Below, piece by piece: positions 2,969 to 32,048 of a DNA stretch of 35,217 nucleotides. Position 1 is the first letter of the stretch. Every line of letters starts with the position of its first letter. Position numbers and translations under genes: made by a program. Source of the DNA: Desulfocapsa sp. (lineage in GTDB: Bacteria > Desulfobacterota > Desulfobulbia > Desulfobulbales > Desulfocapsaceae); NCBI GenBank assembly GCA_030145625.1, contig JAQYVF010000049.1:1-35217 (forward strand), given 5' to 3'. A model generated the notes under the pieces. The model saw only the letters and a program-made list of their open reading frames with translations, did no database searches and was not told the origin of the DNA.

Positions 2969-4216
2969 TTACTCATCTAATCCCTTCCGCTCTTCTTTCT
3001 TGCTATATTTCCTTTTCCCCCCTTCCCATACCAGCCGCAGAGGCCGAAAAAAATAGTAGAGGAACGTCAAAGACGGTGGGAGGGGCCAGGCCTGCCGGTC
3101 CTTGCTGGTGGGGCGGAAACAAATCCGGCAAAGAAAACGATAAAGGTGCTTTATCCTGTCCGAAAATGAATCTCTGATACAGGTATGGAGAGTTGAAAAC
3201 TGGCAAGAATAATCATCCTGTTCCTGCATGGCAGGATCAAGAGTCAACCTGAGCAGGATTTTCTTCCCAACCGGCAGTAATTTTTTGTTGTTATCCAGTT
3301 CGGCCATTACCAGTGGTGGCAGTTTGAGGTCAAAGAGAAGATGGCACAAGAGAAGGCCGAGCAAGACTATGCGATGAGCTCGAAGATATCTGCTTTGTTC
3401 AAAGACTTTAAGCCAGTTGATCTTTTCCGTGTTCCGGATAAGCTCGGAGATACAATTGATATTCTCGAGAGGTTGCCAGCAATGCTTGGAAGAATGAATG
3501 CACAGGAAAACGATATTGTCTTCCACTGACAGGGTTGGGAATTGCCAGGCTGCAAGTTTTATCGTTGTGGCTCTTTCAATGATATCTTCCAGATAGAGAG
3601 GCACAAGAGAATAACGACCAGTCAGTTCCCAATGCAGGTCTATATTTATGTTGTTGCTGGTGTTGACCATTGCAAAACAATTTTCCTTTCTGAGGAAAGC
3701 CTCTTTCCTATCGCCTGCAATCTGCGTTTCGCAGTTATACCCGTTGGCTATCAGCAGGTTTCTAGCCTTGATTGCATCTTTTTCTGCTACTAGAAAGTCC
3801 AGATCACCGAACCAACGGCGGTTGATATTACCGTATGCTGCCTGGGAGAGGGCAGGTCCTTTAAACGGAATGACCTGGATAGTATTGCTGTTGAACAGGG
3901 CAATAATTTTATGGAGATTGGCGGTAAAGAGAAGGTTGCTGGCGCTGGCAGTGATTGCTGCTCGATGAAGATCTTCCAGAACCTGCTCGGGAATGTCATT
4001 GCAGACGACAAGCTGCAGATGGCGAAAAAGGAGGAGGGAAAGTCGGTGAAAAGCCGCCATCCTGAGCAATAAAGACCAGTCTATTTGACTGGTTACAATC
4101 TGTTCTGCTCTATTTTTCTGTGAACTACTCAGGTTGATCCTGGCGCAAAGCAGCACCAGTTCAAGCTCGGGGCCAAATGGTGGCAGACCTTTGGGGAGTA
4201 GTGCCTGGTGTGGCAT
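2969..4216 (-). CDS. Nucleotidyltransferase family protein (NTP_transf_5-like)
   Basis: This 415-residue protein belongs to the uncharacterised nucleotidyltransferase family also found beside lasso peptide kinases and in EPS loci. Its signature is a Gly near 120 (FKGPALSQAAYG), the acidic pair DLD at 138-140 and a third acid in NIDLHWEL (Asp193). It is the last gene of the EPS block and starts 2 nt after the stop of the GT4 gene at 4219-5322, so the two are cotranscribed. A paralogue lies at 19052-20245 and a broken copy at 1863-2304. The substrate is unknown; in this context it may add a nucleotide or phosphate group to a glycan or peptide. Confidence 0.8.
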   Translation of the reverse strand: MPHQALLPKGLPPFGPELELVLLCARINLSSSQKNRAEQIVTSQIDWSLLLRMAAFHRLSLLLFRHLQLVVCNDIPEQVLEDLHRAAITASASNLLFTANLHKIIALFNSNTIQVIPFKGPALSQAAYGNINRRWFGDLDFLVAEKDAIKARNLLIANGYNCETQIAGDRKEAFLRKENCFAMVNTSNNINIDLHWELTGRYSLVPLYLEDIIERATTIKLAAWQFPTLSVEDNIVFLCIHSSKHCWQPLENINCISELIRNTEKINWLKVFEQSRYLRAHRIVLLGLLLCHLLFDLKLPPLVMAELDNNKKLLPVGKKILLRLTLDPAMQEQDDYSCQFSTLHTCIRDSFSDRIKHLYRFLCRICFRPTSKDRQAWPLPPSLTFLYYFFRPLRLVWEGGKRKYSKKEERKGLDE

Positions 4217-18966: not shown

Positions 18967-19051
18967 TGAGCAACTCCTCAAGGATTATTTTTCCACTCGT
19001 AAAAAAGAGTTTCCACAAATACCCTGGCTGGTTAATTCATTTTAAAAAAAA

Positions 19052-20245
19052 TTACTGCCATATTTTCCTTATCGGCATCGTTAACGCCCGGTAAGGCTTG
19101 TATAAAAAATACAGCGGAAATAGTGAGTTGGGTAGATGTGGTGAATAACAGGTATCATGGTCAGGAATTATTAAAGAGCGGAAAACAAATCTGCTTGCAT
19201 CAATCTTGCTATCCATTGCAGCAGGTTGATAACGTATTTTTTTTATAAATGGGTGCACCTTTGAAACTTCGGTTTCTCGGTTCAGTTCACTGCCTATTAT
19301 TTTGTCAGCAAATCTGGTGACAGTAGGATTGGTGGAAAGCATGGTTTCAAGCAATTCTGGAATCGTCGAGGCAAAAAGACTTTTCGCAAGAGAAAGGCTG
19401 ATTAGAATTCTCTTGATCATCTTGTATTTTTTACCCAGTTCCATAATCATGTCCCAGTCGAGATCAGGGACAACAATCATCAGCTCTGCTATGGAACAGA
19501 TATAATCAAGTTTTTCCCAAAAATGTTTATTGCCATGGAGGCAAAGAAATACAAAGAGCATTTCATTTGATAAGGTTAATATCGGGCAATTGTTGAAGAC
19601 GGTTTTCGTTGAAAATGGTTCCAACTTTTCCAGAGTAATAGGCTCTGGGGCATAGAATCCGCTCAACTCCCAGTGTAATTCAATGAGAATACCGTTCTTG
19701 TCCAGCAAGCGGCCATGATGATAATATTGCAAAAATTTGAGAAAGGTGGATTGAGGGATTCCTTCAGGAAGCAGAGTATAATTATTCTTTTGTAACACGT
19801 TCAGGGATTTTTCAAGATTTACCTGATGCACCAGGATGTCGACGTCAGTGTACGATCTCATTGTCGCGGAACCATACAGCTTTTCCGCCAGTATGCCCCC
19901 CTTTACCGGTAGGACTTCAATCTCATTTTCATTCAATATATTAATAACATTGATCAAAGAGGCACTTATTACAAGAGTGTATAAAGAGGATTCTTTTAGG
20001 TGTCTATTGATATTAGTGAGTGCATTATCAGGAATGCTAGTTTTAAAATGGGTGGTGAGTGATTTGTGCAGTAAGGGGATGATTTTATGGTAAAGCGCAT
20101 TATCGATTACAATATCCCAGTCTAATTTCTTGGTTAACAGTTTGCCGATTTCTCGTTTCTGTTCTTCTGTCAGATGTGAGTGGGCACACGCTACCAGCAG
20201 GGCTATTTCTGGTTGGAAGGTGCTATGGTCGTTGTTCTGGGACAT
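19052..20245 (-). CDS. Lasso-associated nucleotidyltransferase (NTP_transf_5-like)
   Basis: This 397-residue protein shows VKGGILAEKLYG at about 115-125, the acidic pair DVD at 134-136 and IELHWELSG downstream: the nucleotidyltransferase core of the family represented by paeninodin PadeN. It lies 18 bp after the HPr-kinase-like gene in the lasso cluster. Its likely role is tailoring of the phosphorylated lasso precursor, for example by nucleotidyl transfer, but this is inferred from context. It is only distantly similar to the paralogue at 2969-4216. It closes the lasso operon before the pseudogene region. Confidence 0.82.
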   Translation of the reverse strand: MSQNNDHSTFQPEIALLVACAHSHLTEEQKREIGKLLTKKLDWDIVIDNALYHKIIPLLHKSLTTHFKTSIPDNALTNINRHLKESSLYTLVISASLINVINILNENEIEVLPVKGGILAEKLYGSATMRSYTDVDILVHQVNLEKSLNVLQKNNYTLLPEGIPQSTFLKFLQYYHHGRLLDKNGILIELHWELSGFYAPEPITLEKLEPFSTKTVFNNCPILTLSNEMLFVFLCLHGNKHFWEKLDYICSIAELMIVVPDLDWDMIMELGKKYKMIKRILISLSLAKSLFASTIPELLETMLSTNPTVTRFADKIIGSELNRETEVSKVHPFIKKIRYQPAAMDSKIDASRFVFRSLIIPDHDTCYSPHLPNSLFPLYFLYKPYRALTMPIRKIWQ

Positions 20246-20263
20246 ATTTGCTGTTAACTTAAT

Positions 20264-21175
20264 TCAGTGGGAATGAGTGTCTGTCAGTCTCTGCAAAAGG
20301 CTGGTTGTTTTCGGCAGCAAGTCAAGATTCCTTGGGCGTGTCAGCCGGTATACGGGGATTGATTTTGTGAGATGCGCAGCCTGGGAGAAGATTTCTTTTC
20401 GAAGGTCAATGGGCTGGTTTTCCGGGAAACGATTAATCATCATGTGGGTTAAAATTTCCTTTACCGCTTCCATGCCGTGAAGCTGTTCCAGTGTTAATTT
20501 GTCTCCTGTTTCCAGTATGCAGACTGCGCCAACCGGTTTGGCTGTGGGGCAGAACCCTTCGTTCAAGTCCCGTATACGTTTTGAGACCTTTGGATGTACC
20601 TGGGGGTAGTTGTCCGGGTTGTCTCCAAAGTGGAGTAATGCATCAGGGTTGAGCCTGATTTTTGGAAAGGCAGGTCTTATTGAAAGGAGTTGCTTGTCTC
20701 CGTAGTCTATTGCACAGACATCATCTGAGACTAATGGAAAGCCTTGGTTAACCAGCCAGGCAGCGAGGGTGGATTTGCCTTCTCCCTTGTTTCCCATAAA
20801 AATTGTAACTTGTTTATCCAGTAATACCGCACTGCCATGCAATGTAATACAGCCACGTTGCTGAAGGGCCATGGCCATAATAGTCCCGAGAATTGGCAGG
20901 AGGATGTTATCGTGATTGACCGGTTCATTGGGGTGGATCAGAATTTCTTTTCCGGATTCTATTTGGTACGAACCAAGCATGTCCCATTTGAGGTGTAACT
21001 GCTCTCTGTTTGTGTATTCGTACCAGACTCCGTCCCAGCTGCGATTTTTGGAGATATCGGGGACCGTGCCAAAATGGATGGTAATATCCGGCTCTGATGT
21101 CGCCTGGACAGTTGGAATCAATAAATCGATATCCGACTGAATGGTTAAGGAATATGCTGAAAAGTAGGTGTTCAT
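20264..21175 (-). CDS. HPr-kinase-like lasso precursor kinase
   Basis: This 303-residue protein resembles the C-terminal kinase domain of HprK: LHGSAVLLD near 112, the Walker A loop GNKGEGKST at 128-136 and the SDD acid pair at 150-152 (LVSDDVCAIDYG). Kinases of this type in lasso clusters (PadeK, ThcoK) phosphorylate the C-terminal serine of the precursor peptide. The precursor at 21651-21797 ends in Ser-Ser, which suits that activity. It lies between the small peptide gene and the nucleotidyltransferase gene. A related family (HprK-related kinase A) occurs in EPS loci, but the linked precursor and cyclase make the lasso role more likely. Confidence 0.85.
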   Translation of the reverse strand: MNTYFSAYSLTIQSDIDLLIPTVQATSEPDITIHFGTVPDISKNRSWDGVWYEYTNREQLHLKWDMLGSYQIESGKEILIHPNEPVNHDNILLPILGTIMAMALQQRGCITLHGSAVLLDKQVTIFMGNKGEGKSTLAAWLVNQGFPLVSDDVCAIDYGDKQLLSIRPAFPKIRLNPDALLHFGDNPDNYPQVHPKVSKRIRDLNEGFCPTAKPVGAVCILETGDKLTLEQLHGMEAVKEILTHMMINRFPENQPIDLRKEIFSQAAHLTKSIPVYRLTRPRNLDLLPKTTSLLQRLTDTHSH

Positions 21176-21328
21176 TTAAATATTCTGCTTATGCGAAAGT
21201 GTGTGATTTATGTCCAATAGATGTTGATGAAGAAAGATTCCGACAATATTTGCAATCACGCACCGAGAAGTGAGAGAAGCATGTAATGCTCGCTTCATAT
21301 AAAGAAGGATATAATAAAAAAGAAGAGA

Positions 21329-21365
21329 AGAGAAGTAAATAGGTAGAAGTGCCTATGCTACAGGA
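21329..21365. terminator. Hairpin repeat, copy 1 (end of the small peptide gene)
   Basis: The segment ATAGGTA-gaag-TGCCTAT (21339-21356) forms a 7-bp stem with one G-U pair on the plus strand. It overlaps the TAG stop at 21353. It is embedded in a 37-bp repeat that shares 31 of 37 positions with 24224-24260. It may terminate or attenuate minus-strand transcription between the peptide genes and the kinase. Confidence 0.5.
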
Positions 21366-21529
21366 TTTGTGAGGAAAAAAGTCCGAAATTTGGGGGTATC
21401 ATACCAGGTGTTATTCAATTGGGGGAACTCTTGCAGAGCCCCTGCGGTAAATTTTTTCTTTCGTCTTGCTTTTGAATAATAATCCTGATTTTTAAGATAC
21501 CCTGTGTTCATCCTATTCATCTTACTCAT
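21353..21529 (-). CDS. Small basic peptide of the lasso cluster (58 aa)
   Basis: This gene begins at the ATG at 21529, 4 nt after an AAGGAG Shine-Dalgarno (21534-21539), and ends at a TAG inside the downstream hairpin. The product has a basic N-terminal half (YYSKARRKKKFTAG) and a C-terminal half with LNNTWYDTPKFRTFFLTNPV. The Y-x-x-P-K-F word matches the YESPKI motif by which lasso leaders bind the B1 protein. It lacks an obvious Gly1/Asp core. It could be a second peptide substrate, an RRE-binding accessory peptide, or unrelated. I do not recognise a family. Confidence 0.6.
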   Translation of the reverse strand: MSKMNRMNTGYLKNQDYYSKARRKKKFTAGALQEFPQLNNTWYDTPKFRTFFLTNPVA

Positions 21530-21650
21530 TTTTCTCCTTCAAAAAACAGGTTGGGGAGGTCTGTTGAAGAACACGAGTAAATCAGAACTGTTTACAAATT
21601 ACAAGATCGATCAATGCTTACTCGAAGTTATGAGAAGTTACAGGGGTAAA

Positions 21651-21797
21651 TTAGCTTGAAGGATTCGGAAAGGCATTGTCAGTTCCTATGCCATCATCAG
21701 AATTTTCATAACCTCCTCCTAATGTGATTTCTCTTACATCGCCGTGCTCATGAATCTTTGGGCTCTCATATTGAGCCTTCTGGTTTTGTTTTTCCAT
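21651..21797 (-). CDS. Lasso peptide precursor (48 aa)
   Basis: This short gene reads MEKQNQKAQ, then YESPKIHEHGDVREIT-L (leader), then GGGYENSDD followed by GIGTDNAFPNPSS (core). The leader has the lasso signature: Y-x-x-P-x-I/L for B1 binding, a Gly six residues after the Pro, and Thr at -2 before the cleavage site (Thr25-Leu26/Gly27). The core would start with Gly1 and close a macrolactam with Asp8 (or Asp9). The C-terminal Ser-Ser is a fitting site for the kinase encoded at 20264-21175. It lies 42 bp after the lasso cyclase gene and has a near-consensus AAGGAGGTGAT ribosome-binding site. Confidence 0.9.
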   Translation of the reverse strand: MEKQNQKAQYESPKIHEHGDVREITLGGGYENSDDGIGTDNAFPNPSS

Positions 21798-21802
21798 CAG
21801 AT

Positions 21803-21813
21803 ATCACCTCCTT
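21803..21813 (-). promoter_or_regulatory. Near-perfect Shine-Dalgarno of the lasso precursor
   Basis: AAGGAGGTGAT matches the 16S rRNA anti-Shine-Dalgarno over its full length, with 9 nt between GGAGG and the ATG at 21797. Most neighbouring genes have weak sites, so the precursor is set up for high translation relative to the enzymes. This also supports the chosen start. Confidence 0.8.
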
Positions 21814-21839
21814 TTTAAATTTCAAAGACTACGGTTTAG

Positions 21840-23750
21840 TTAACCTTCCCAACCTGAAAGTTGTTCTCTATGATTTAACCAAAGCATTAAACCAATGATA
21901 CGATAAAACTGCAATGCCGAGGCACTGTTCAGAGACTTTTCTGAAGATTCTAGCAGGGTTTTAATCTTATCCCTATCAAGATATTCAGAGACCTTTTCAA
22001 TGTTATTTTTATGTTGAAGATGATAATGGTCTATAAGTTTCATGCATAATGTATTGGCATGGGGTGCTAAGTTTGCTTTTCCTCCACGCCAGCACACACT
22101 TGATGGCAGTGATGCTTCCATAGCCCGTCTCATGATGATGCGGTTCCAGCCGTGATCAAGCTTTTGTTCCGCTGGTAAAGAAAGGCAGAACAAGATTAAT
22201 CTTTTATCCCAGAATGGGAAACGTTTTTCGAGAGAAAAATGTGCCGTGGTTCTATCTATCAAGCTGAGAGTCGTTGGCATATAATGGGCCGTTAATCGTT
22301 GAACCTGTGAAACCTGTTCATTAAAATCTTTTTTGGAAAAGGATTGCTTAAGGCTTTGATATCTCTCGCCTGCATTTATTTTTTTATAAAATTCTGTTGC
22401 AAGGATTGTGTTCCCAGTTTGCTTCTTGGTTGTTTTTGATATATTTTTTTTTATCTTGGCAGCACTGTCAAAGAAAAAGGAGAGGGGACTGTAATTTTTC
22501 AGATAGTAGTAGGTTATCTTTCCGCGTGGGATGGAAAAATGGTTTGCATATCCTTCGGCTTCCCTGACCAGCTTGAGCCATTGCATAGAGCGGGCAAGTT
22601 CAGCCAGACGGCCTATGCCATGGGACACAGTGCTGTCACCATCAAAGCCGTGAAGCTGTACCTTGACGCCAACTTCGCGGGCAAGTGTGTTTATTTTCCA
22701 TCCAGGAGTGACATTAAAGGCAAAAGCAGCCTCTTCAAGAGTAGTCTGAAACTCATCATACTCCTCTTTGCTGGGAAACTGGTCTGCCTGGACGAAATGG
22801 GGGATTATATTGCCCTGCTGAATGATGGGATCAATATATTCTCTTTCATCGCATTCATGGAGATCTTTGAAAAAATAGCTGAATGTGTGGAGTCGCTCGT
22901 TCCCCTGTGAAACCAGGATATCCCTGGCAGTACTGGTAATAGATGAGGAATCAAGCCCACCACTCAGGTGGGAGCCGATTGGACCAGTTCTTCTCATTCT
23001 ACAGCGGACACTTTCTGTGAAAATTTCTTTGAAGGCCTCGGTGTATTCACTGTTGTTTCGCAGTTTCAGAAGAGGTCCGGCCTCAAGGGTCCAGTATCTT
23101 TTTTCCGCCATTCCTGCATGGTTGGAAAGAAGGAAATGGGCAGGGCGAAGGGTGTGGATATTTTTGTAAAACGTCGAGCTGCCGTCATCCTGGTTGGCCA
23201 TGAAGTCGGCGATTCTTTCTTCATTGATTTCACAACTTATTTGAGGCAAAAGAAGGAGGGCTTTTATTTCCGAAGCAAAGGCAAAGAATTTTTCTGAAGT
23301 GTAATAATAAAACGGTCGGACCCCAAAGTGATCTCTCAGGGCAAAAATCCTCTGCTCTTTTTTGTCCCAGATGACTACCGCATAATCTCCGAGAAGATGT
23401 TGGTGGCAGTCAACACCCCACTTTTTATAAGCTTCCAGGATGAGCCTGCTGTCGGAAATTGTATGGGGAGCAATGGTTGAACAGTCAAGCAGACTCAGCA
23501 GATCTTGCCGGTTATCAATACGCGCATCCGCAGTAACGGCAATCTGTGCTTCCGTGTCATAATACGGTAATTCTTCATGCAATGATTCCGGAGTGGTCTG
23601 CAACAAGAGATTGGCAAGGCCAATATTCTTGTCACACCAGAGTCCCTGCCTGTCTGGCCCACGATGGTGCATAGTGTGTGCCATTTTTTCTACCAGGACA
23701 GGGGAAACTGTTTGCTGGTTGAAATAGTATATGCCTGCTATTCCACTCAT
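21840..23750 (-). CDS. Lasso cyclase (AsnB-like macrolactam synthetase)
   Basis: This 636-residue protein has an N-terminal Ntn glutaminase-like domain and the ATP pyrophosphatase loop SGGLDS at 263-268. In asparagine synthetase B the second residue is the catalytic Cys; here the start is MSGIAG, so Ser2 replaces it and glutaminase activity is not expected. This is usual for lasso cyclases (McjC/PadeC type), which activate the Asp/Glu side chain by adenylation and join it to the Gly1 amine. It lies directly upstream of the precursor gene. No clear ribosome-binding site precedes it. Confidence 0.9.
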   Translation of the reverse strand: MSGIAGIYYFNQQTVSPVLVEKMAHTMHHRGPDRQGLWCDKNIGLANLLLQTTPESLHEELPYYDTEAQIAVTADARIDNRQDLLSLLDCSTIAPHTISDSRLILEAYKKWGVDCHQHLLGDYAVVIWDKKEQRIFALRDHFGVRPFYYYTSEKFFAFASEIKALLLLPQISCEINEERIADFMANQDDGSSTFYKNIHTLRPAHFLLSNHAGMAEKRYWTLEAGPLLKLRNNSEYTEAFKEIFTESVRCRMRRTGPIGSHLSGGLDSSSITSTARDILVSQGNERLHTFSYFFKDLHECDEREYIDPIIQQGNIIPHFVQADQFPSKEEYDEFQTTLEEAAFAFNVTPGWKINTLAREVGVKVQLHGFDGDSTVSHGIGRLAELARSMQWLKLVREAEGYANHFSIPRGKITYYYLKNYSPLSFFFDSAAKIKKNISKTTKKQTGNTILATEFYKKINAGERYQSLKQSFSKKDFNEQVSQVQRLTAHYMPTTLSLIDRTTAHFSLEKRFPFWDKRLILFCLSLPAEQKLDHGWNRIIMRRAMEASLPSSVCWRGGKANLAPHANTLCMKLIDHYHLQHKNNIEKVSEYLDRDKIKTLLESSEKSLNSASALQFYRIIGLMLWLNHREQLSGWEG

Positions 23751-23840
23751 GCTTATTTAGTTGTATTCGTGGCTGTCATAAGGTTTTTTCTCAAAAAATT
23801 AAATCGAGAAATTCAGTTAATTGTTTTTGCAAGTTTGCTT

Positions 23841-24050
23841 TCAATATTCGCAATGTTCCAAGATTGATTCAGGAATTGGTGTAAATCTGTTTTCACTCTG
23901 GAGTTCATTCCAGGATAGTGAGCAAACAAGGTTAAAGCTCGAAGAGGTCACTGATGGAATGCCCATCATGACGCTTTCTTCGAGTATAAATATTTCTCCA
24001 TTTGCTTGGTCTACAAGGTTGGAGTATGGAGAAAATGGTGGGCATTTAAT
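23841..24050 (-). pseudogene. Decayed second PqqD/B1-like gene
   Basis: An open minus-strand frame without a usable start reads NGEIFILEESVMMG, SVTSSSFNLVCSLSWNELQ and then RFTPIPESILEHCEY to a stop at 23841. This aligns with the intact B1 at 26254-26565 (DGETVMMDLKLG, SVASHIWKELE, FFPILESILENF). The shared words W-x-EL and F-x-PI-x-ESILE make a paralogue likely. The N-terminus seems lost to a frameshift near 24030-24050; an ATG at about 24162 opens another frame that ends there. It lies between the exporter and the cyclase genes, where B1 often sits in lasso clusters. Confidence 0.6.
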
Positions 24051-24322
24051 TTAAGAATGTCACATGTCTCCGTTTTTATATTTGTTTTCTTGGTGCTGTT
24101 CACGAGGTGGGCCTTTTTTGGGGCCTGCTGGGTTTTGTGTTTGTAGAATGTTAGTGAAGACATTGGGTACCAATTAATGATAATTGATTTTAGATCATTA
24201 AGGAAAACTTAAAATAGATAGGGAGAGAAGTAAATAGGTAAAAATACCTATTTTATAGGAATAAAGGTGGGTCAAATTAGCGAATGAAAAAAATATCAAA
24301 TCAAAAAATGCGATTGTTGTGT
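24051..24322. other. Intergenic spacer with hairpins
   Basis: No intact gene was found here. It holds an 8-bp inverted repeat TTAATGAT (24174-24181) / ATCATTAA (24194-24201) and the second copy of the AATAGGTA hairpin repeat. It is probably the terminator and promoter region between the exporter gene and the cyclase transcription unit. Confidence 0.45.
24224..24260. terminator. Hairpin repeat, copy 2 (after the exporter gene)
   Basis: AATAGGTA-aaaa-TACCTATT (24233-24252) is a perfect 8-bp stem with a 4-nt loop, 70 nt after the exporter stop codon. It lies in a 37-bp segment nearly the same as 21329-21365, which follows the small peptide gene. Likely function is transcription termination or mRNA end protection. 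Confidence 0.55.
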
Positions 24323-26149
24323 TTATTGAATCGAATAATTTTTTGCTTGTCGTTCAAACATTGTTGCATAAAGCCCCTGAAATTGCATGAGTTCTTCGTG
24401 GGTTCCGCTTTCTGCAATTTTTCCATCCTGCATGACGAAAATGTTATCCGCCATTCTGACGGTAGAGAGTCGATGACTGATTAAGACTGCAGTGCGTCCT
24501 TGGGTCAGTTGATGGAATTGCTGAAAGATTTCATATTCTATTTTTGCATCCAGAGAGCTGGTTGGTTCATCCAGGATCAGAAGTGGTGCTTGGCGTAAAA
24601 AAGCCCGAGCCAGGGCTATTTTCTGCCACTCACCGATGGAAATCTGTTCTCCCTTCTCAAATAATTTTCCAAGGATGGTGTCGTACCCCTGGGTGAGTTC
24701 GGATATCACGTCATGGGCACCTGATTGTTGAGCTGCTTTTATTATTGCGTCATGCTCCAGAGGGGTATTGATATTGCCAAGCCAGATATTTTCTCGGGCA
24801 GTAAGGTTGTATTTGACATAGTCTTGAAAAATAACACTGATTTGATGCCTGATTTCAGTGGAATCCAAGTCTTTGAGGTCAGTGTTGTTAAAGAGTATTC
24901 TTCCGGAGTCCGGATCATAAAGTCGACAGAGCATCTTGACAAGTGTGGTTTTGCCGGAACCATTTTCGCCAACCAGGGCGACATGTTCACCAGGATGAAT
25001 GGTCAAAGAAATATCTTTTAAAACATCTCTGTTACTGGTGGGGTATTTGAAGTGTACCTGATCAAAAATGATATCGGCGCGTTGAAGGTCAGGGGTTTGT
25101 TTTGGTTTTTGTGGGGTAATGATTTTGGGTTCGAGATTGAGGAATTCAGAGAGATTGGTCAGGAACAGATTGTCTTCATAAAGTCCGGCCAGGCTGGTCA
25201 GCATTTCCTTTAAAAAAGCTTGACCTCGTTGGAAGGCCTGAAAGAACATGACCAGGTCTCCAAGGGTGATGGAACCCTGTACTGTTTTATAGGCGATAAA
25301 ACTATAGGATGCGAAAACTGTGATGGTTGCAAAGGCCTGGGCAAAAAATTCTGAGGAGGATTTTTTGGCGGTTATGGCCAACTTTTCCTCACGCAGTCTT
25401 GTGCGAAGTTTTTTGTATCGTTCTCTGAAGAGCGATCCTAAATCAAAGAGTCTGATCTCTTTAGCATGAGATTCATGGGTGAGGAGCAAGTCGAAATACC
25501 AGGCTTTGCGTTCGGTTTTAGTTTGTTTTCGCTGCCAGTTGTAAATAGTATCGGCATAGCGCACTTTTACAAAAAGTCCTGGCAAGGCAGAGGCAAAAAG
25601 TAACAAGCCTATGCCCCAGTGGAATGAAAAGAGCAGGCCTGCCATGGCCAGGAGGGAGATACTGGTTTTGCCAAGGATGGCAAGGCTGTTGACGATTTTG
25701 GTTGGCCTGAAAGACGCCTCCCGCTGGGCACGATGCAGTGTGTCAAAATATTTTGGATTTTCGTAGTACTCAAGATCCACTGCTACTGATTTGGCATGGA
25801 TGACATCATGCATGCGATCCGTGACCACAAGAGATTGGGCCTCACCTATATAGCGGCTCAGAGCCTGTATGCAGACATCAGCAAGGGCAATCGCACCGGC
25901 GAACACAATGTAGAGAGTTATCTGCTGTAAGGCTGCTCCTTTGTCGGGTGCAGCCATGCCGCTGGTGACAGCATCAATAATTAGCTTTATCAGATAAAGA
26001 GATAAGAGGGGCAAAATACCCTGGATAATGAGAAGGGCAAAGTTTGCTGCAGTCAGGCCTGGGCAGCTTTTCCAGACTAACCGTAACGCGAGATCCAGGC
26101 GTAATACCACGTTGATCTTGTTTTTTATGGTTTTGCTGAGTGTCTTCAC
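24323..26149 (-). CDS. ABC exporter of the lasso peptide (fused membrane and ATPase domains)
   Basis: This 608-residue half-transporter has about six membrane segments in residues 30-330 and an ATPase domain with Walker A GENGSGKTT (394-402), Walker B LLILDE (523-528) and the switch His559. The signature motif is ISIGEWQ (503-509) instead of LSGGQ, a variant also seen in peptide exporters of this kind. No C39 peptidase domain is present, so it cannot replace the missing leader peptidase. It should work as a homodimer to export the mature lasso peptide (D protein). The start codon is GTG. Confidence 0.88.
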   Translation of the reverse strand: MKTLSKTIKNKINVVLRLDLALRLVWKSCPGLTAANFALLIIQGILPLLSLYLIKLIIDAVTSGMAAPDKGAALQQITLYIVFAGAIALADVCIQALSRYIGEAQSLVVTDRMHDVIHAKSVAVDLEYYENPKYFDTLHRAQREASFRPTKIVNSLAILGKTSISLLAMAGLLFSFHWGIGLLLFASALPGLFVKVRYADTIYNWQRKQTKTERKAWYFDLLLTHESHAKEIRLFDLGSLFRERYKKLRTRLREEKLAITAKKSSSEFFAQAFATITVFASYSFIAYKTVQGSITLGDLVMFFQAFQRGQAFLKEMLTSLAGLYEDNLFLTNLSEFLNLEPKIITPQKPKQTPDLQRADIIFDQVHFKYPTSNRDVLKDISLTIHPGEHVALVGENGSGKTTLVKMLCRLYDPDSGRILFNNTDLKDLDSTEIRHQISVIFQDYVKYNLTARENIWLGNINTPLEHDAIIKAAQQSGAHDVISELTQGYDTILGKLFEKGEQISIGEWQKIALARAFLRQAPLLILDEPTSSLDAKIEYEIFQQFHQLTQGRTAVLISHRLSTVRMADNIFVMQDGKIAESGTHEELMQFQGLYATMFERQAKNYSIQ

Positions 26150-26253
26150 GGTGTGCAGGTCAGTGATGGTTACAGCTTGAGGGGTGGTTTAACATGTTAT
26201 TCCTGTGAAAGCCGGATCAAGTTCCTTGTCACGAGTGTATATTGTGCGGAAGA

Positions 26254-26565
26254 TCATTTGATTTGCACCTGAATTAAGTCTTTTTCGGACAATTCATCGA
26301 GAAATGCAGTGAGTTCCCTCTGGGCAGTCTCTCGATCAACATGGAAATTTTCAAGAATAGATTCCAAGATAGGAAAAAATCCTGTGCCTTTCTCTAATTC
26401 CTTCCAAATATGGGAGGCAACTGAATTGAAACTGGAATAGACTCCCAACTTCAAATCCATCATCACCGTTTCACCGTCAATCTCAGTGGATAATTTCTCG
26501 TCTGCTTGTTTGATGGTGCATGTTTCCAGTAATTCTTGAGGCATATTGCAAAATTTAAGATCCAT
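26254..26565 (-). CDS. PqqD-like lasso leader recognition protein (B1)
   Basis: This 103-residue protein has the PqqD/RRE pattern: KLSTEIDGETVMMDLKLGVYSSFNSVASHIWKEL-type beta-hairpin plus helix at about residues 24-58, followed by a helical tail (ILENFHVDRETAQRELTAFL). Such proteins bind the leader through the Y-x-x-P motif and present the precursor to the B2 protease and the cyclase. The paired ABC exporter begins 104 bp downstream. Similar PqqD proteins occur with HprK-related kinases in EPS loci, but the precursor in this cluster favours the lasso role. Confidence 0.85.
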   Translation of the reverse strand: MDLKFCNMPQELLETCTIKQADEKLSTEIDGETVMMDLKLGVYSSFNSVASHIWKELEKGTGFFPILESILENFHVDRETAQRELTAFLDELSEKDLIQVQIK

Positions 26566-26618
26566 TACCTAGTTTCCTTTTCTGTCATGAATAAAAGAGC
26601 AGGGGAGCTATTCCACTT

Positions 26619-26718
26619 GTTGGGTTACGCAGATTACTATTTTTTGAAAACCCATGGTGTGGTCTTCAAGAGTGTCGTTGGGCACAATTACAGGGGGGGA
26701 GCTGCTAACCCAACCTAC
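26619..26718. repeat. Non-autonomous RAYT-type palindromic element
   Basis: GTTGGGTTACGC (26619-26630) and GCTAACCCAACCTAC (about 26704-26718) bound a 100-bp element between the B1 gene and the propeller-like gene. The ends match the repeat family that flanks the RAYT gene at 31411-31953 and the element at 5383-5521. Confidence 0.65.
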
Positions 26719-26738
26719 CTCACTGCCAAAGATCGTCT

Positions 26739-28004
26739 TCAAATGGTTCCTTGCGGGTGGTCTTGAAGAAAATGACGACCATCCAGTTTGAGAATATCTC
26801 CTGTCTCTGGTTTGAGTTCATTTTGGTTCCAAAAGCGTGGATTGGTAATTTCAGATCCAATACTAAAATAGAAATTGTTTTCTAATAGTGCAAAGGAACG
26901 AACTAACGCAGGGGAAATAAAATAGAATAATTCTTCCCATTTTTCCAGATTGTTGCTTCGCAGAACTGATACTTCCATTATACCATCAATTATTGGCTTG
27001 TTGAGTAGAATATAGATGTATTCTCCAGATAGATACGTATCCCAAGGTACACTCTTGTCAGGTAGTGGAGCTTTTTTTATTGATGGTGACTTTTTTGATA
27101 GTGAATCTGCAACATAAAGGCCAAAGGGAAGGAACTGGTGGTCATTGTGGATATAACTTCCAATGTATAAGGTTTTATTTGCTAGATTTTGTGGTTGAAC
27201 AATTTTGTATTGTTTTTTTGGGTTGAGGGTGGTGTCTGGGAACAATTGTTTAGTGCTGATGTCCTGCCGTAAAATAAATTCGTTGTTGTCTGAATATTCA
27301 TAGATTGCAGGATATGGTTGGCCCTTTGTTTTTTTTAATGGGTGCGAGAATTCGGAGCTCAGAAATCTTCCGACAGCATAGAGCTTATCGGCTACCACTA
27401 TAAAATTATAAATTCTCCCAGACTGTTCGAAAAGAGACAGATCCCAGGTGGTCCCAAGGTCCTGTGAAACAACAATATTTGGTTTCTTAGCAGTTCCCAG
27501 GCCTGCAAAAAGTTTGTTGTTGAAGAAACGAAGGCAATAGGTGTGGATAGCCTTTGGAATGGTTCTTTTTTTCTGCCATTGCTCTCCGTCTTCCAAAAGG
27601 TATAAATTTCCCAGTTCCCAGCTTTCTTTTGGGTCATGGCCCGGAACAAACAATCGATTGTTGTGCGAGTAAAAGGTGTCAATCTGCTCATCGGAGGTCA
27701 TAAATACAGGATCAAAGGAATTTGTCTCCGGTGTGTAAGCGATGATAGGAACAGGACCTGCATTGGGTGCCGGCCCAATGTTACTGCTGTTCCCGGCACC
27801 CAGGTATAATTTCCCCTGGAAGCCGATCATATCCCATATATTTCTTGCGTAGATACGTTGTTTGTTTGGATAGTATCGGAAATAGGGATTGTCCAGGTAC
27901 TCAAGGTGGCTGGACACATTGTTTCTGGAAAAACAATATGTTGCATTGCAGAAGCTTAAAATTGGTAAGAAAAATAGAATAAAAACAAGCGTGTTCTTTT
28001 GCAT
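26739..28004 (-). CDS. Secreted propeller-like protein of unknown function
   Basis: This 421-residue protein starts with a hydrophobic signal peptide (NTLVFILFFLPILSFC, with Cys near residue 19, possibly a lipoprotein site). Repeating blocks of about 45-50 residues follow, such as GFQGKLYLGAGNSS, HNNRLFVPGHDP, FNNKLFAGLGTAK, VADKLYAVGRF and GEYIYILLNKP. The recurring pattern of x-x-KLYxG and W-D resembles the beta-propeller of sialidase or Kelch-like proteins. No catalytic Asp-box or peptidase motif is evident. It lies between the EPS ligase gene and the lasso operon; it may act in the periplasm or on the surface, in either system. Confidence 0.6.
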   Translation of the reverse strand: MQKNTLVFILFFLPILSFCNATYCFSRNNVSSHLEYLDNPYFRYYPNKQRIYARNIWDMIGFQGKLYLGAGNSSNIGPAPNAGPVPIIAYTPETNSFDPVFMTSDEQIDTFYSHNNRLFVPGHDPKESWELGNLYLLEDGEQWQKKRTIPKAIHTYCLRFFNNKLFAGLGTAKKPNIVVSQDLGTTWDLSLFEQSGRIYNFIVVADKLYAVGRFLSSEFSHPLKKTKGQPYPAIYEYSDNNEFILRQDISTKQLFPDTTLNPKKQYKIVQPQNLANKTLYIGSYIHNDHQFLPFGLYVADSLSKKSPSIKKAPLPDKSVPWDTYLSGEYIYILLNKPIIDGIMEVSVLRSNNLEKWEELFYFISPALVRSFALLENNFYFSIGSEITNPRFWNQNELKPETGDILKLDGRHFLQDHPQGTI

Positions 28005-28053
28005 GTTGTGATGAGGCTCCGGCCTTATGCCTGAACAATTACAAAGGATTTGG

Positions 28054-30387
28054 TTACCTGATGCCTTGCAAGCGTTTTCGGATCTTTTCGTTGCCTGGTT
28101 CCAGCATCAGGGCCTGTTCGTATTCTTCTCTGGCCCGGTAGGGGATGGCTTGCTGTTTGTAGTAGTCGCCCAGAGAGATGTGGAAGGGGGCGTGATTTGG
28201 CAGCCATTCGATTCCCTGGCGAAGTGTGGCAACGGCCTCGTCGTTTCGTTTCTGTTTTTTGTAAAACCTGTAGAGCTGGTTGAAATACCAAGACTTCACA
28301 GTTTCTTCATTCTTGAGGAAAGTCAGGGCATGGCGTCTGTAGTATTCGGCGTCTTCCATTCGGCCTAGTTTTTCAGAAAAGGATCCGAATCTTATCCATG
28401 CTGTTACTCGTTCAGGGAGGATATCTTGGATTTCGTCTCTACTGAATTGACTGCTTATCAGTAATGCAGGAATTTCCAGGGCCAGTCTGGGGAACCGGTC
28501 CATACCCTGTTGGAGGACGGTCATGGCCTCCTGTTTTCGATCTTGGCGCAGGAGCCATTCCACCCAGGGGAAGACCAGATTCTTTTTATTCTGGCTTCTT
28601 GTATAGCCTTCGCTCATGAGAAACGATGCCGTGGCATTGTCGGTGGCAGTAAGGATGAGCCCAAGCCTTTGCAGGTATGCGCCTTCAAGGGGATCCTTCC
28701 TTGATGCCTGGAAATAATTGCTGAATGCTAGTTCGTTTTGTTGCTGATAGGAGAGGAGATTCCCTTTGTAAGAGGAGTAGACGGCTTCCAGCGGATCAAA
28801 GAGAATTGCCTTGTCCGTTATGAGCAGGAGGTTTTGAAAAGTCTGTTTCGAGAGTTGTGGGCTGATGTAAATACCGGATGCTTGTTGATATAACCCTTTT
28901 GCCCGCAGAATTCCTCCTTGAAAGAAAATGGTGAGGAGAAGCAAGGGAATTGCAGTAAGACAGGCCAGCTTCCATTTGGGGGATACATTGGTCAGCAGGG
29001 TTGGTCGGGTACGGTATCGGAGCCTGGTGTTTCCGGCGGAGACCAGGATGCCGCAGAGAAAAAAGAAATAGAGACCGTTTGCCCCGTTATGCATATTGAA
29101 ATCAGTCACACTGTGGAGCAGAAGGGACATAATGGCGGTAAGTCCGCAGATGATAAGGAGAATGGAGTAGGGCTCTCTTCTGTTTTTCAGTTTCTTCAAT
29201 CCATGGACAATGATGGTGATGACAAACCATGCTGCAAGGAGAAAACCGATGACTCCGCCGTCGGTGAGGAGTTCGATATAATCGTTGTGGGCATGATCAA
29301 AAATCAAAGTGGTTGGGACAGTACTGTATTGTGGGTAAACTTGAATGAATGTGCCGAAGCCTGAGCCGGTGAACAGGAAGTCTCGTATAAAGGGAGCGCA
29401 ATCCTGCCAGACCAGGAGGCGGCCATCAGTGATGCCACCGGTTTCGGTAAAGGTCCTGTTGACTTTGGAGAGAATCGGATCCCAGCCGAACCAGGTCACT
29501 GCCAGTAGTACACTGCTCAGGAATATGAGTGGTAGCATCCTGCCGCTGGAGCCCGGATTTTTTCTGGCCAGGAGCAGCAGGAAAAAGAGCAATCCAAGGC
29601 TGATAGAGATAATACCTCCCCTGGAAAGGGCGATAAAAACAGAGGCCAGGATGAGAATAATCCCGAATCCCATGAAAAAATGCATATTGGAACCCGGAGC
29701 AGTGAAGAGAGATACTGTCCGTGTTCGGAGAGTTTGCTGATAGGTGAAGGTCGGGCGGTAATGAAAAAAGAGGGCAAGGACCAGGGGGAAGACCAGTTCC
29801 ATGAACCCGGCATAGTGGTTGTGGTAAACCCATGGGCCCACTGTCCCGGCATTTTCAGGGGTAGGCCGAAACCAGTAGATCTCGTCAGGAGAGGTGAATT
29901 TCTGGATAATGGCAAGAAAGGCAATCGCTATGGCCAGCCAGGCGATCATTTTTACGGTTTTGGTCAAGGTCTCGCTTTTACTCAGCAGTTGTACGGTGAG
30001 AATATAAAAGACTGCATAGGAGGTGATTCGAAGGCTTTCAAGCAGGGTGGCCTTCTGGTTGACGGTAAGCGGGATCCACTGGCTGGTTTCCTGCAGGTCG
30101 AGTAATGGGGCATAGGCCTGGTAAACGCCGGGGGCTATCATTTTGACCAATGGAGGTGGCAGCGGTATCAGTTGCAGAGATATCCAGAGAATCAGGAGAA
30201 GTAGAGGAAGAAAGCCCGGAACTTGAAGAAATGCTTGCTTGTCATGTTTCCTTTGAAAGAAATATGATAATGCGGTCAGGAAGACAAGGATTTCAACGAG
30301 CGCAATAGACCAGGTTTCTACGCTTCCAAAGGCCAGCGGGGCAAAGAAGAGGGTTGTCAGGAAGAGGGGGAAGGAAAGGGTGCGCAT
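28054..30387 (-). CDS. O-antigen ligase/Wzy-like protein with C-terminal TPR-like region
   Basis: This 777-residue protein has about eleven membrane segments in residues 1-440. A Wzy_C-type loop contains VYHNHYAGFMELVFPL near 188, ALSRGGIISISLG near 256 and DHAHNDYIELLTDGGVIG near 367. After about residue 480 it becomes soluble, with helical repeats such as AVATLRQGIEWLPNHAPFHI and YEQALMLEPGNEKIR typical of TPRs. It likely joins or polymerises lipid-linked glycans in the periplasm, with the repeat region serving in protein contacts. A second, smaller Wzy-like gene lies at 8007-9209, so one may be a polymerase and the other a ligase. Confidence 0.82.
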   Translation of the reverse strand: MRTLSFPLFLTTLFFAPLAFGSVETWSIALVEILVFLTALSYFFQRKHDKQAFLQVPGFLPLLLLILWISLQLIPLPPPLVKMIAPGVYQAYAPLLDLQETSQWIPLTVNQKATLLESLRITSYAVFYILTVQLLSKSETLTKTVKMIAWLAIAIAFLAIIQKFTSPDEIYWFRPTPENAGTVGPWVYHNHYAGFMELVFPLVLALFFHYRPTFTYQQTLRTRTVSLFTAPGSNMHFFMGFGIILILASVFIALSRGGIISISLGLLFFLLLLARKNPGSSGRMLPLIFLSSVLLAVTWFGWDPILSKVNRTFTETGGITDGRLLVWQDCAPFIRDFLFTGSGFGTFIQVYPQYSTVPTTLIFDHAHNDYIELLTDGGVIGFLLAAWFVITIIVHGLKKLKNRREPYSILLIICGLTAIMSLLLHSVTDFNMHNGANGLYFFFLCGILVSAGNTRLRYRTRPTLLTNVSPKWKLACLTAIPLLLLTIFFQGGILRAKGLYQQASGIYISPQLSKQTFQNLLLITDKAILFDPLEAVYSSYKGNLLSYQQQNELAFSNYFQASRKDPLEGAYLQRLGLILTATDNATASFLMSEGYTRSQNKKNLVFPWVEWLLRQDRKQEAMTVLQQGMDRFPRLALEIPALLISSQFSRDEIQDILPERVTAWIRFGSFSEKLGRMEDAEYYRRHALTFLKNEETVKSWYFNQLYRFYKKQKRNDEAVATLRQGIEWLPNHAPFHISLGDYYKQQAIPYRAREEYEQALMLEPGNEKIRKRLQGIR

Positions 30388-30396
30388 GGGTGGTAG

Positions 30397-31107
30397 TTAG
30401 GCTGACGGCTGAAGGTTGGTGGCTGAAGGTAAAAGGATGTTGTACCCGCTTACCAGTTTTTGGGCTTCTGCTTTGCCTATTATTTTTGCAGCCTGTTTGA
30501 CTGCTTTGCTTAATATGGGTTTTCTGAACCCTGGAGAGTGGGAGTCGGTTCCTATGTAGTGGACCTGGTTCTTTTGAAAAAGGTAGTTAGCACAGTTTCT
30601 GGCAGTCATACCCTGATCTCCGGTAATGGATTCCGCAGTGATCTGCGTTTTCGCGCCCAGCTTGATGAGGGGAGCCAGCAGCCATGGTTCTTGTGATATC
30701 TGGCCGTTACGTTCCGGATGGGCGATAATTGGGGTGATTTTGTTTGTGATGAGGTTGTATATCAGGTTTTCGGAGTCAGCAGGCAGGTAGCTGTGTGGAA
30801 ATTCCACAAGCAGCGAGGAACTCCCTGCCAGGCAGAAATTTTCTGCAGCTTCCAAGGCGATGTGCGCCTGCACTTCGGCACCGAAGAGAACGGTAATTGC
30901 AATGGCCTGGCGTTTAAGCTGTGTATTTAACTCCTCAATTGCCTCCAGAAGTCTGTCCTTCGGGTAATTGATATCTGCGAGGTGGGGAGTGGCAATGATG
31001 GTGTGAATACCATCCCTTGCGGCCATCCTGGCCATCTCAAGTGAGGTCTCCGTATCCGGTGAGCCATCGTCTATACCGGGAAGGATATGGCAATGGATAT
31101 CGATCAT
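30397..31107 (-). CDS. CpsB/YwqE-type PHP tyrosine phosphatase
   Basis: This 236-residue PHP metal-dependent phosphatase begins with MIDIHCHILPGIDDGS, holds TPH at 41-43, VEFPHSYLP at 101-109, HPERN at 130-134 and TDSH near 197. Members dephosphorylate the tyrosine-rich tail of Wzc/CpsD kinases and thereby control chain length. The cognate kinase lies upstream at 32188. The last residues (SATNLQPSA) come from a run of GGCTGAAGG-type repeats, so the C-terminus may have been extended by repeat insertion. It precedes the ligase gene by 9 bp. Confidence 0.9.
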   Translation of the reverse strand: MIDIHCHILPGIDDGSPDTETSLEMARMAARDGIHTIIATPHLADINYPKDRLLEAIEELNTQLKRQAIAITVLFGAEVQAHIALEAAENFCLAGSSSLLVEFPHSYLPADSENLIYNLITNKITPIIAHPERNGQISQEPWLLAPLIKLGAKTQITAESITGDQGMTARNCANYLFQKNQVHYIGTDSHSPGFRKPILSKAVKQAAKIIGKAEAQKLVSGYNILLPSATNLQPSA

Positions 31108-31410
31108 GGGGAAGGTACAGGCTGAAGGGTGGAAAAGGCTGAAGGCTGAAGGTTAAGGGCTGGAAGGGAAGAGGGTGAAGGAGGAAAGCTGAAGGGGGAT
31201 GTAACAAGTTTCAATGCGTTACTTGTTGCTTTCTCTTTGTCTATGTACAGATGCGGTCTCATTGTTTTTCTTTGTCCTTCTGCCCTTGGTCTTTATGTAG
31301 TGTCTTGGTGTGATTTGTAAAGATGTTGGGTTTCGTTCCTCTCTACCCAACCTACCTGGATTGTAATAGTAGGTTGGGTAGAGGAACGAAACCCAACATG
31401 ATACATGATA
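31108..31410. repeat. Spacer of GGCTGAAGG-type and RAYT-type repeats
   Basis: No gene is seen here. Positions 31120-31198 contain degenerate repeats of GGCTGAAGG, also present at 30401-30430. Positions 31323-31355 and 31369-31399 are two inverted units (GTAGGTTGGGTAGAGG... and its complement) forming a near-perfect palindrome of about 77 bp. It lies 11 bp after the RAYT stop codon. Confidence 0.7.
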
Positions 31411-32048
31411 CTACTCTTGACCGACTTGATTTTCAAACTTCATTTTTATTCCTGCGCCCCAATTCTGATCGTAGAAGCCCTTGCTGACATGGTGTTGGAA
31501 ACTGGATAAAGGCCATTGCGAAGGGGCGTCTGTTAATCCGTGTTTGACGGGATTGTAGTGAATATAATCGATATGTTGATTGTAATCATTTTCGTTTTGT
31601 ATCTGATGCTCCCAGAAACGACGTTGCCAGACAGCCAGTTCCTTTTTGTTTTTCCGGGATTTTGTTCTTATTCCTGAATATTGGGATTCGCATTGGCGGC
31701 TGAATGCACTTTTTATCAGGCGCCAACGCATCGAATAGTCAGAATCCGCAATTGGTAATGTCCACAGACAATGAAGATGATCAGGTAAAATTACAGCGGC
31801 ATCTATTGTGAATGGATGTTTCTTTTTTATCTCACGGAAGATAGAACGCAGAAGGGTTATGTTTTCAGGCTCACAAAGAAATGGTCGCCGCTGATCAGTT
31901 ACGACAGTGAAGAAATAGCTGCCACCTTCTGTCTGTGCTCGTCGATATCTCATTTGTATATCGGCTTGTTGGGTTCAGCGGTTGTTGTAAAGATGTTGGG
32001 TTGTGATTGTAGTAGATCTGTTGGGTTTCGTTCCTCTACCCAACCTAC
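31315..32048. mobile_element. RAYT gene with flanking palindromic repeats
   Basis: The transposase gene at 31411-31953 is enclosed by members of one repeat family: inverted units at 31323-31355 and 31369-31399 on one side, and GTTGGGTT units at 31968, 31995 and 32020-32048 on the other. An 18-bp direct repeat, TTGTAAAGATGTTGGGTT, occurs at 31315-31332 and again at 31985-32002, bracketing the gene. Related copies without a gene lie at 5383-5521 and 26619-26718. This is the standard organisation of a REP-associated transposase with its mobilisable repeats. Confidence 0.75.
31411..31953 (-). CDS. REP-associated tyrosine transposase (RAYT, Y1/HUH family)
   Basis: This 180-residue protein has the HUH motif in ILPDHLHCLW (His59, His61) and the YIHYNPVKHG region with the likely nucleophile Tyr130. 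It is a single-strand endonuclease of the TnpA-REP family, known for cleaving REP hairpins. The start MRYRRAQTEG and length are normal for the family. Insertion between the wzc and cpsB genes places it in the middle of an otherwise conserved kinase/phosphatase pair. It appears intact. Confidence 0.92.
   Translation of the reverse strand: MRYRRAQTEGGSYFFTVVTDQRRPFLCEPENITLLRSIFREIKKKHPFTIDAAVILPDHLHCLWTLPIADSDYSMRWRLIKSAFSRQCESQYSGIRTKSRKNKKELAVWQRRFWEHQIQNENDYNQHIDYIHYNPVKHGLTDAPSQWPLSSFQHHVSKGFYDQNWGAGIKMKFENQVGQE

Follow-up and report, generated by a model that had tools for sequence, protein, structure and literature searches.

A lasso peptide locus of Desulfocapsa sp. with an apparently swappable precursor-cyclase cassette and a leader peptidase probably supplied in trans

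We analyzed a stretch of 35,217 nucleotides from Desulfocapsa sp. (hereafter the window, meaning this stretch at its full length; it is contig C3 of the draft genome G000, which comprises 4.98 Mb in 229 contigs), and found a lasso peptide locus that represents not a new class but an unusual organization of a known one. As a preliminary description had held, a lasso precursor and cyclase are accompanied by a kinase and a transferase inside an exopolysaccharide (EPS) locus; however, no leader peptidase (B2) is encoded there, and the precursor and cyclase differ from those at the same position in a second, congeneric species. We propose that this is a modular system, in which a swappable precursor-cyclase cassette operates with a B2 supplied in trans, and regard this reading as probable, if some way from secure. 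A B2 acting in trans is favored because the PqqD-like protein B1 is conserved, a single B2 was found in the genome, two species show the same state, and a genome assembled as one contig (G129) presents a comparable case.

The precursor gene (A; 21651..21797, minus strand) very likely encodes a lasso precursor of 48 residues, by the following evidence. Its open reading frame (ORF) has a perfect Shine-Dalgarno sequence, aaaggaggtgat, 5 nt upstream of the start codon, and its translation passed the NCBIfam lasso leader model NF033521 (26 bits, cut-off 19), while remaining below the cut-off of the cyanobacterial lasso model NF033528 (23.8 bits, cut-off 33) and giving no match in a Pfam scan. Together with a homologue at the locus L004, described below, these results uphold the gene as originally proposed, although not the accompanying claim that it had been overlooked by annotation, as NF033521 detects the ORF. 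The predicted leader, which ends ...YESPKIHEHGDVREITL, follows the pattern YxxP (YESP)..G..T with the Thr at position -2, and the predicted core is GGGYENSDDGIGTDNAFPNPSS, in which Asp8 and Asp9 are the acceptor candidates (the expected core position being 7-9) and the C-terminal end is PSS. When used as a direct query, the precursor recovered matches in 2 of 36 genomes, namely its own and that of the second species (G002). A custom leader hidden Markov model (HMM) built from 11 seeds matched the ORF with E 8.7e-14, the next best match in the window being at E 1.2, but this recovery is circular since the window precursor was itself a seed. The leader shares the elements HGDV..IT with that of one precursor (C77b) of a second lasso locus in the same genome.

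The L004 homologue lies directly after the closest homologue of the window cyclase and is 56% identical to A over 44 residues. It had been anticipated that homologues would be conserved beside AsnB-like genes with Thr(-2), Gly1 and Asp8/Asp9 in place; the location, Thr(-2) and Asp8 are indeed retained, whereas residue 1 is Gln in this closest homologue and Asp9 is missing there. As Asp8 is thus shared without Asp9, the comparison favors an 8-membered ring, with Asp8 as the better guess for its acceptor in the window peptide. We then considered 30 precursors hand-picked from the matches to the leader HMM across the order, from which chance-looking ones were dropped and one at E 0.15 (L062) was kept; one member (L038a) is incomplete, and the set includes some mutual orthologues. 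The set was aligned on Thr(-2), so that its presence in 30/30 carries no independent weight. At core position 1, Gly and Ala occur in 11 precursors each, and the remaining 8 have Tyr, Asn, Gln, Asp, Lys or Met; for metanodin, an Asn at this position has been proposed (PMC12670498; this and the other papers cited by such numbers were available in part). Asp or Glu is found at core position 8 or 9 in 23/30, and Ser is the last residue in 18 and lies within the final three residues in 7 more. Counted from Thr(-2), one precursor of the second locus (L036, G000:C77 2276-2464) and its G002 version (L038:3-125) have neither Asp nor Glu at core 8-9; the former has Asp at 11, and the latter also Glu7. 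In four others (L042:4210-4407, which also has Asp at 7, L060:10296-10460, L077:10879-11043 and L064:7835-8050) an Asp occupies position 10 on the same count, suggesting either cleavage of the leader one residue further on or a ring of more than nine members.

No B2 was found in the contiguous 35-kb window with either PF13471 or a custom HMM. Across the whole genome PF13471 yielded one match, on contig C77, and none on C3; upon relaxing the search to E<=10 the next two scored 13.9 and 12.5 bits, under the 26-bit cut-off. A B2 remnant between A and the kinase gene K (21176-21640) was rejected after all six frames were read and tblastn with two B2s over 19000-31000 gave chance-level matches only (best E 0.64). 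The C77 locus (L036, 9.5 kb) encodes, beside its B2, a B1, two cyclases and two precursors, both with a WxxP leader. Based on the adjacency of the sole B2 found in the genome to this second lasso cluster, we suggest that the two clusters probably share it. Furthermore, both C77 kinases are damaged, one being a fragment with a stop and the other having an internal deletion and frame changes, and at E<=0.001 no intact kinase of this type other than the window K (20264..21175, minus strand) was recovered from the genome. K was recognized as an HprK-like peptide kinase by the motifs LHGSA, GNKGEGKST and SDDV, its Pfam and NCBIfam scores all being under the cut-offs.

The syntenic locus of G002 (L042) likewise lacks B2: tblastn with two B2s over 12 kb of it, including the gap between a gene of unknown family (SIA) and an O-antigen-ligase-like gene (OAL), gave a best E of 0.096, and this match falls beyond SIA, near the OAL end. 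G002 has one B2 over the cut-off, which is 90% identical to the C77 B2 and is situated at the orthologous second locus. The genes framing the cassette are well preserved between the two species, with identities of 92% for the MsbA-type ABC exporter D (24323..26149, minus strand, GTG start), 86% for the intact B1 (26254..26565, minus strand), 85% for OAL, 80% for K and 74% for SIA (26739..28004, minus strand). For B1, D, K and SIA the nonsynonymous divergence (dN) is 0.04-0.16 and the synonymous divergence (dS) 0.27-0.78 (B1: dN 0.072, dS 0.271; K: dN 0.106, dS 0.668), and as dN is well under dS these genes are maintained. Together with the same B2-less state in both species, this makes it unlikely that B2 is missing through a recent mishap or an assembly error.

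In contrast to these flanks, the segment between them has been exchanged. In blastn comparisons the window matches G002 at 80% over 20264-21381 and at 85% over 24330-28034 and 28081-31298; the match ends at 20264, which is the end of K, and is broken at 21381 and 24330, thereby delimiting a precursor-cyclase cassette at 21381..24330. The two-species comparison thus catches a cassette swap with mapped edges. The corresponding G002 cassette encodes a cyclase only 36% identical to that of the window and a different precursor, in an order reversed relative to the window. The window cyclase C (21840..23750, minus strand) is an AsnB-like protein that scores 688.3 bits against NF033535 (cut-off 525) and has SGGLDSS at 263 and Ser in place of Cys2 (MSGIAG). 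In a tree of 30 cyclases picked from the loci fetched, with support from the Shimodaira-Hasegawa-like approximate likelihood ratio test (SH-aLRT), it groups with the L004 cyclase (100), while the G002 cyclase groups with that of G235 (99). The similarity of the window to L004 extends to the DNA level over 22048-23978, spanning the cyclase and, just upstream of it, a degenerate PqqD-like B1 remnant (~23847..23978, minus strand), which is 57% identical over 44 residues to the L004 B1 and occupies the same position as that intact gene. These sequences are most simply explained by acquisition of the cassette from an L004-like lineage, with the B1 that it brought decaying next to the resident gene. 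A search for close cyclases at E<=1e-130 in 257 genomes recovered, besides the window's own, only those of G059 (65%; by its coordinates the genome of L004) and G183 (44%), and a contig scan gave a second locus, L005, at 27% identity. A palindrome, TAGGTA-N4-TACCTA, occurs at 24235-24250 and, with one mismatch, at 21340-21355, both copies lying within direct repeats of 72 nt (72% identical) on either side of the cassette. The genome has 13 exact sites as against 1 for the reversed control; a role as lasso operator or as a site of recombination was rejected, since by eye 8 of the 10 sites read lie near other genes and the other 2 at the two lasso loci. Composition gave no clear support for a recent foreign origin of the cassette either (GC 41.2%, flanks 42.1% and 43.1%, window 44.1%).

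To place the absence of B2 in a wider context we surveyed 257 genomes of the order, scoring up to 4 candidates per genome, counting a cyclase at 345 bits or more (a line drawn after the scores were seen) and pairing cyclases by hand against the list of B2s, with those within ~10 kb taken as linked. At least 35 cyclase genes in 30 genomes were thus counted, and for five of these the B2 is unlinked (G000:C3, which is the window, G002:C65, G013:C34, G129:C1 and G149:C13); one further cyclase, G002:C12, is at a contig end, where linkage is not judgeable. Cyclases of uncertain class at 272-307 bits were left out (G004:C26 twice, G009:C1:1526395, G061:C31 and G235:C224:13626), and including those on B2-less regions would raise the unlinked number. 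Every genome with an unlinked locus (five in all) has a B2 over the cut-off. In G129, which is a single contig estimated to be 95% complete, the one cyclase found is clustered with B1, A and K; the sole B2 found lies 436 kb from it, accompanied by an ABC pair. The sole B2 found in G013 (L057:9228-9686, on G013:C12) stands alone among genes that by eye are of housekeeping type, on a contig other than that of the lasso cluster, whereas G149 is a mild split, with B1 and B2 together 17 kb away. A complete relative of the window architecture is seen in G176 (L077), which combines D, a window-like B1, a second B1, a precursor, a cyclase, a kinase and B2.

In the modular system that we envisage, the window B1 would bind the YxxP leader and pass the precursor to the shared C77 B2, which would cleave after Thr-Leu, upon which the cyclase would form, around the tail, a ring between Gly1 and Asp8 (Asp9 is less likely). 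K might then phosphorylate the C-terminal Ser, N, the nucleotidyltransferase of the locus, might add to the resulting phosphate, and D would export the finished peptide. Given that the C77 kinases are broken, the window K may in return serve the C77 precursors, in this genome only. A more ambitious version, to which we give somewhat less than even credence, is that of a plug-in system, wherein one genome-wide B2 and, in this genome, possibly one kinase serves three precursors via two B1 adaptors, one for YxxP leaders (window) and one for WxxP leaders (second locus), with cassettes exchanged at a fixed slot. Bacillota RiPP recognition elements (RREs) have been described to tell YxxP from WxxP leaders, although an actinobacterial RRE did not (PMC13381572, as far as available); hence, two adaptors on one protease are plausible.

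Several observations weigh against supply of B2 in trans. The window B1 is only ~31% identical to the C77 B1, and the leaders differ in their aromatic residue, YxxP in the window and WxxP at C77; thus, compatibility of the window B1 with the C77 B2 is not a given. A second B2 could sit in a gap of the 229-contig draft, although the absence is shared by both species. Across the order a linked B2 accompanies 29 of the at least 35 cyclases counted (one of these B2s, in G161, is below the Pfam cut-off). The G002 counterpart of N is 37% identical over the part preceding a contig end and lies outside the conserved frame, and the second locus of G002 retains one intact kinase, which limits any return service by K to the genome of the window. 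Finally, pseudomycoidin reportedly forms without B2, going by the title of a 2019 report by Zyubko and by secondary descriptions.

The last point provides a precedent for the best-surviving alternative, namely that maturation here is independent of B2, with the cyclase folding the core on its own or a host protease trimming the leader; the lack of B2 at the locus in two species would accord with this, but the retention of a B2 over the cut-off in every genome with an unlinked locus speaks against it, and we consider it unlikely. We find it improbable that the locus is decaying, having lost B2 and one B1 so that the peptide is no longer made: the missing B2 and the B1 remnant in the cassette are what such decay would leave, yet the remaining genes have uninterrupted reading frames and keep their family matches or motifs, the four flanking genes B1, D, K and SIA bear the dN and dS values given above, and the G002 slot holds another intact cassette and no ruin. 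That this is an ordinary complete cluster, the B2 of which was missed or lost in assembly, draws on the prevalence of linked B2s in the order, but is very improbable in view of the contiguous window and the syntenic G002 locus, neither of which yielded a B2. Lastly, a linear phosphopeptide (LPP)-like pathway with an incidental cyclase, suggested by the LPP core set of RRE, kinase, transferase and MsbA-like exporter (PMC13381572), can be given hardly any weight, as a lasso cyclase is adjacent, a lasso leader is present, a search of the genome with TIGR02228 for an archaeal-type (SpI-like) signal peptidase gave no match at E<=0.001, and LPPs are described, in the available part of the same source, as having no macrolactam cyclase.

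The neighbors originally named, an AsnB-like protein without Cys2, a PqqD-like protein, an ABC exporter, an HprK-like kinase and a nucleotidyltransferase, all agree with the profile matches or motifs. The intact B1, a PqqD-like RRE, scores 51.5 bits against PF05402 and 55.6 bits against the lasso-specific NF033536, under its 80-bit cut-off; D matches Pfam ABC_tran and ABC_membrane, and none of its Pfam matches is a peptidase domain; and N (19052..20245, minus strand) scores 144.7 bits against PF14907. A second PF14907 nucleotidyltransferase is encoded at 2969-4216, at the opposite end of the EPS locus. Judged by eye, the surroundings of the lasso genes include OAL as well as Wzc-like and glycosyltransferase-like genes. 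An ORF at 31411-31953 resembles, again by eye, a REP (repetitive extragenic palindromic)-associated transposase. SIA, a protein of 421 residues with a signal-like start (by eye) that is conserved at such loci, matched nothing in Pfam or NCBIfam, and its profile found nothing among PDB sequences up to E 1; an AlphaFold model from 3 sequences was poor (predicted local distance difference test score 47). It is present in 4 of the 257 genomes of the order, and 3 of the 4 copies are at a lasso locus of this type; cyclase, B1, B2 and K are absent from the 18 kb examined around the remaining copy, in G116 (34% identical). SIA is possibly a receptor, an immunity protein or a binding partner.

Lasso clusters are usually recognized by an adjacent cyclase and peptidase, and split loci like that of the window may therefore be missed. 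If one B2 does serve several loci via B1 adaptors, it would constitute a natural instance of orthogonal leader recognition on a common protease, and such a system would be useful for combinatorial lasso engineering. If the plug-in version is true, a species could change its lasso peptide while keeping leader processing, phosphorylation and export. In the literature, which was covered in part, no lasso locus with B2 encoded elsewhere was among the matches listed, which is weak evidence of novelty.

Among known systems, the pseudomycoidin cluster of Bacillus pseudomycoides is alike in its precursor, cyclase, HprK-like kinase and nucleotidyltransferase; however, clusters of that kind own a B2, which the window does not, and they differ in phylum, leader and core. 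The paeninodin-type clusters of Bacillota share with the window the kinase, transferase, cyclase, discrete B1 and C-terminal Ser, and some of them occur in capsule loci (PMC13381572), comparable to the EPS locus here. The initial assignment of the gene set to this type holds only in part: K and the C-terminal Ser agree with it, whereas the locus has no B2, the host is outside Bacillota, Gly1 is not conserved, and the leader is of the YxxP kind, the W of WxxP being nearly invariant in paeninodin precursors (PMC13381572). Closest to the window is L004, from the Desulfobulbaceae metagenome-assembled genome S143_11, with identities of 64% for the cyclase, 57% for SIA, 56% for the precursor and 53% for K; it has an intact B1 where the window has a remnant, and is unlike the window in its own B2 (239-694), two-gene ABC exporter, N of 34% identity and core with Gln1 and Asp8 only. 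Enzymes encoded away from the precursor that needs them are also described for lanthipeptide proteases (PMC8960859) and the citrulassin deiminase (PMC12971885), as far as these sources were available; the unclustered enzyme is there a protease of lanthipeptides in one case and a tailoring enzyme in the other, whereas here it is a lasso leader peptidase, apparently common to three precursors.
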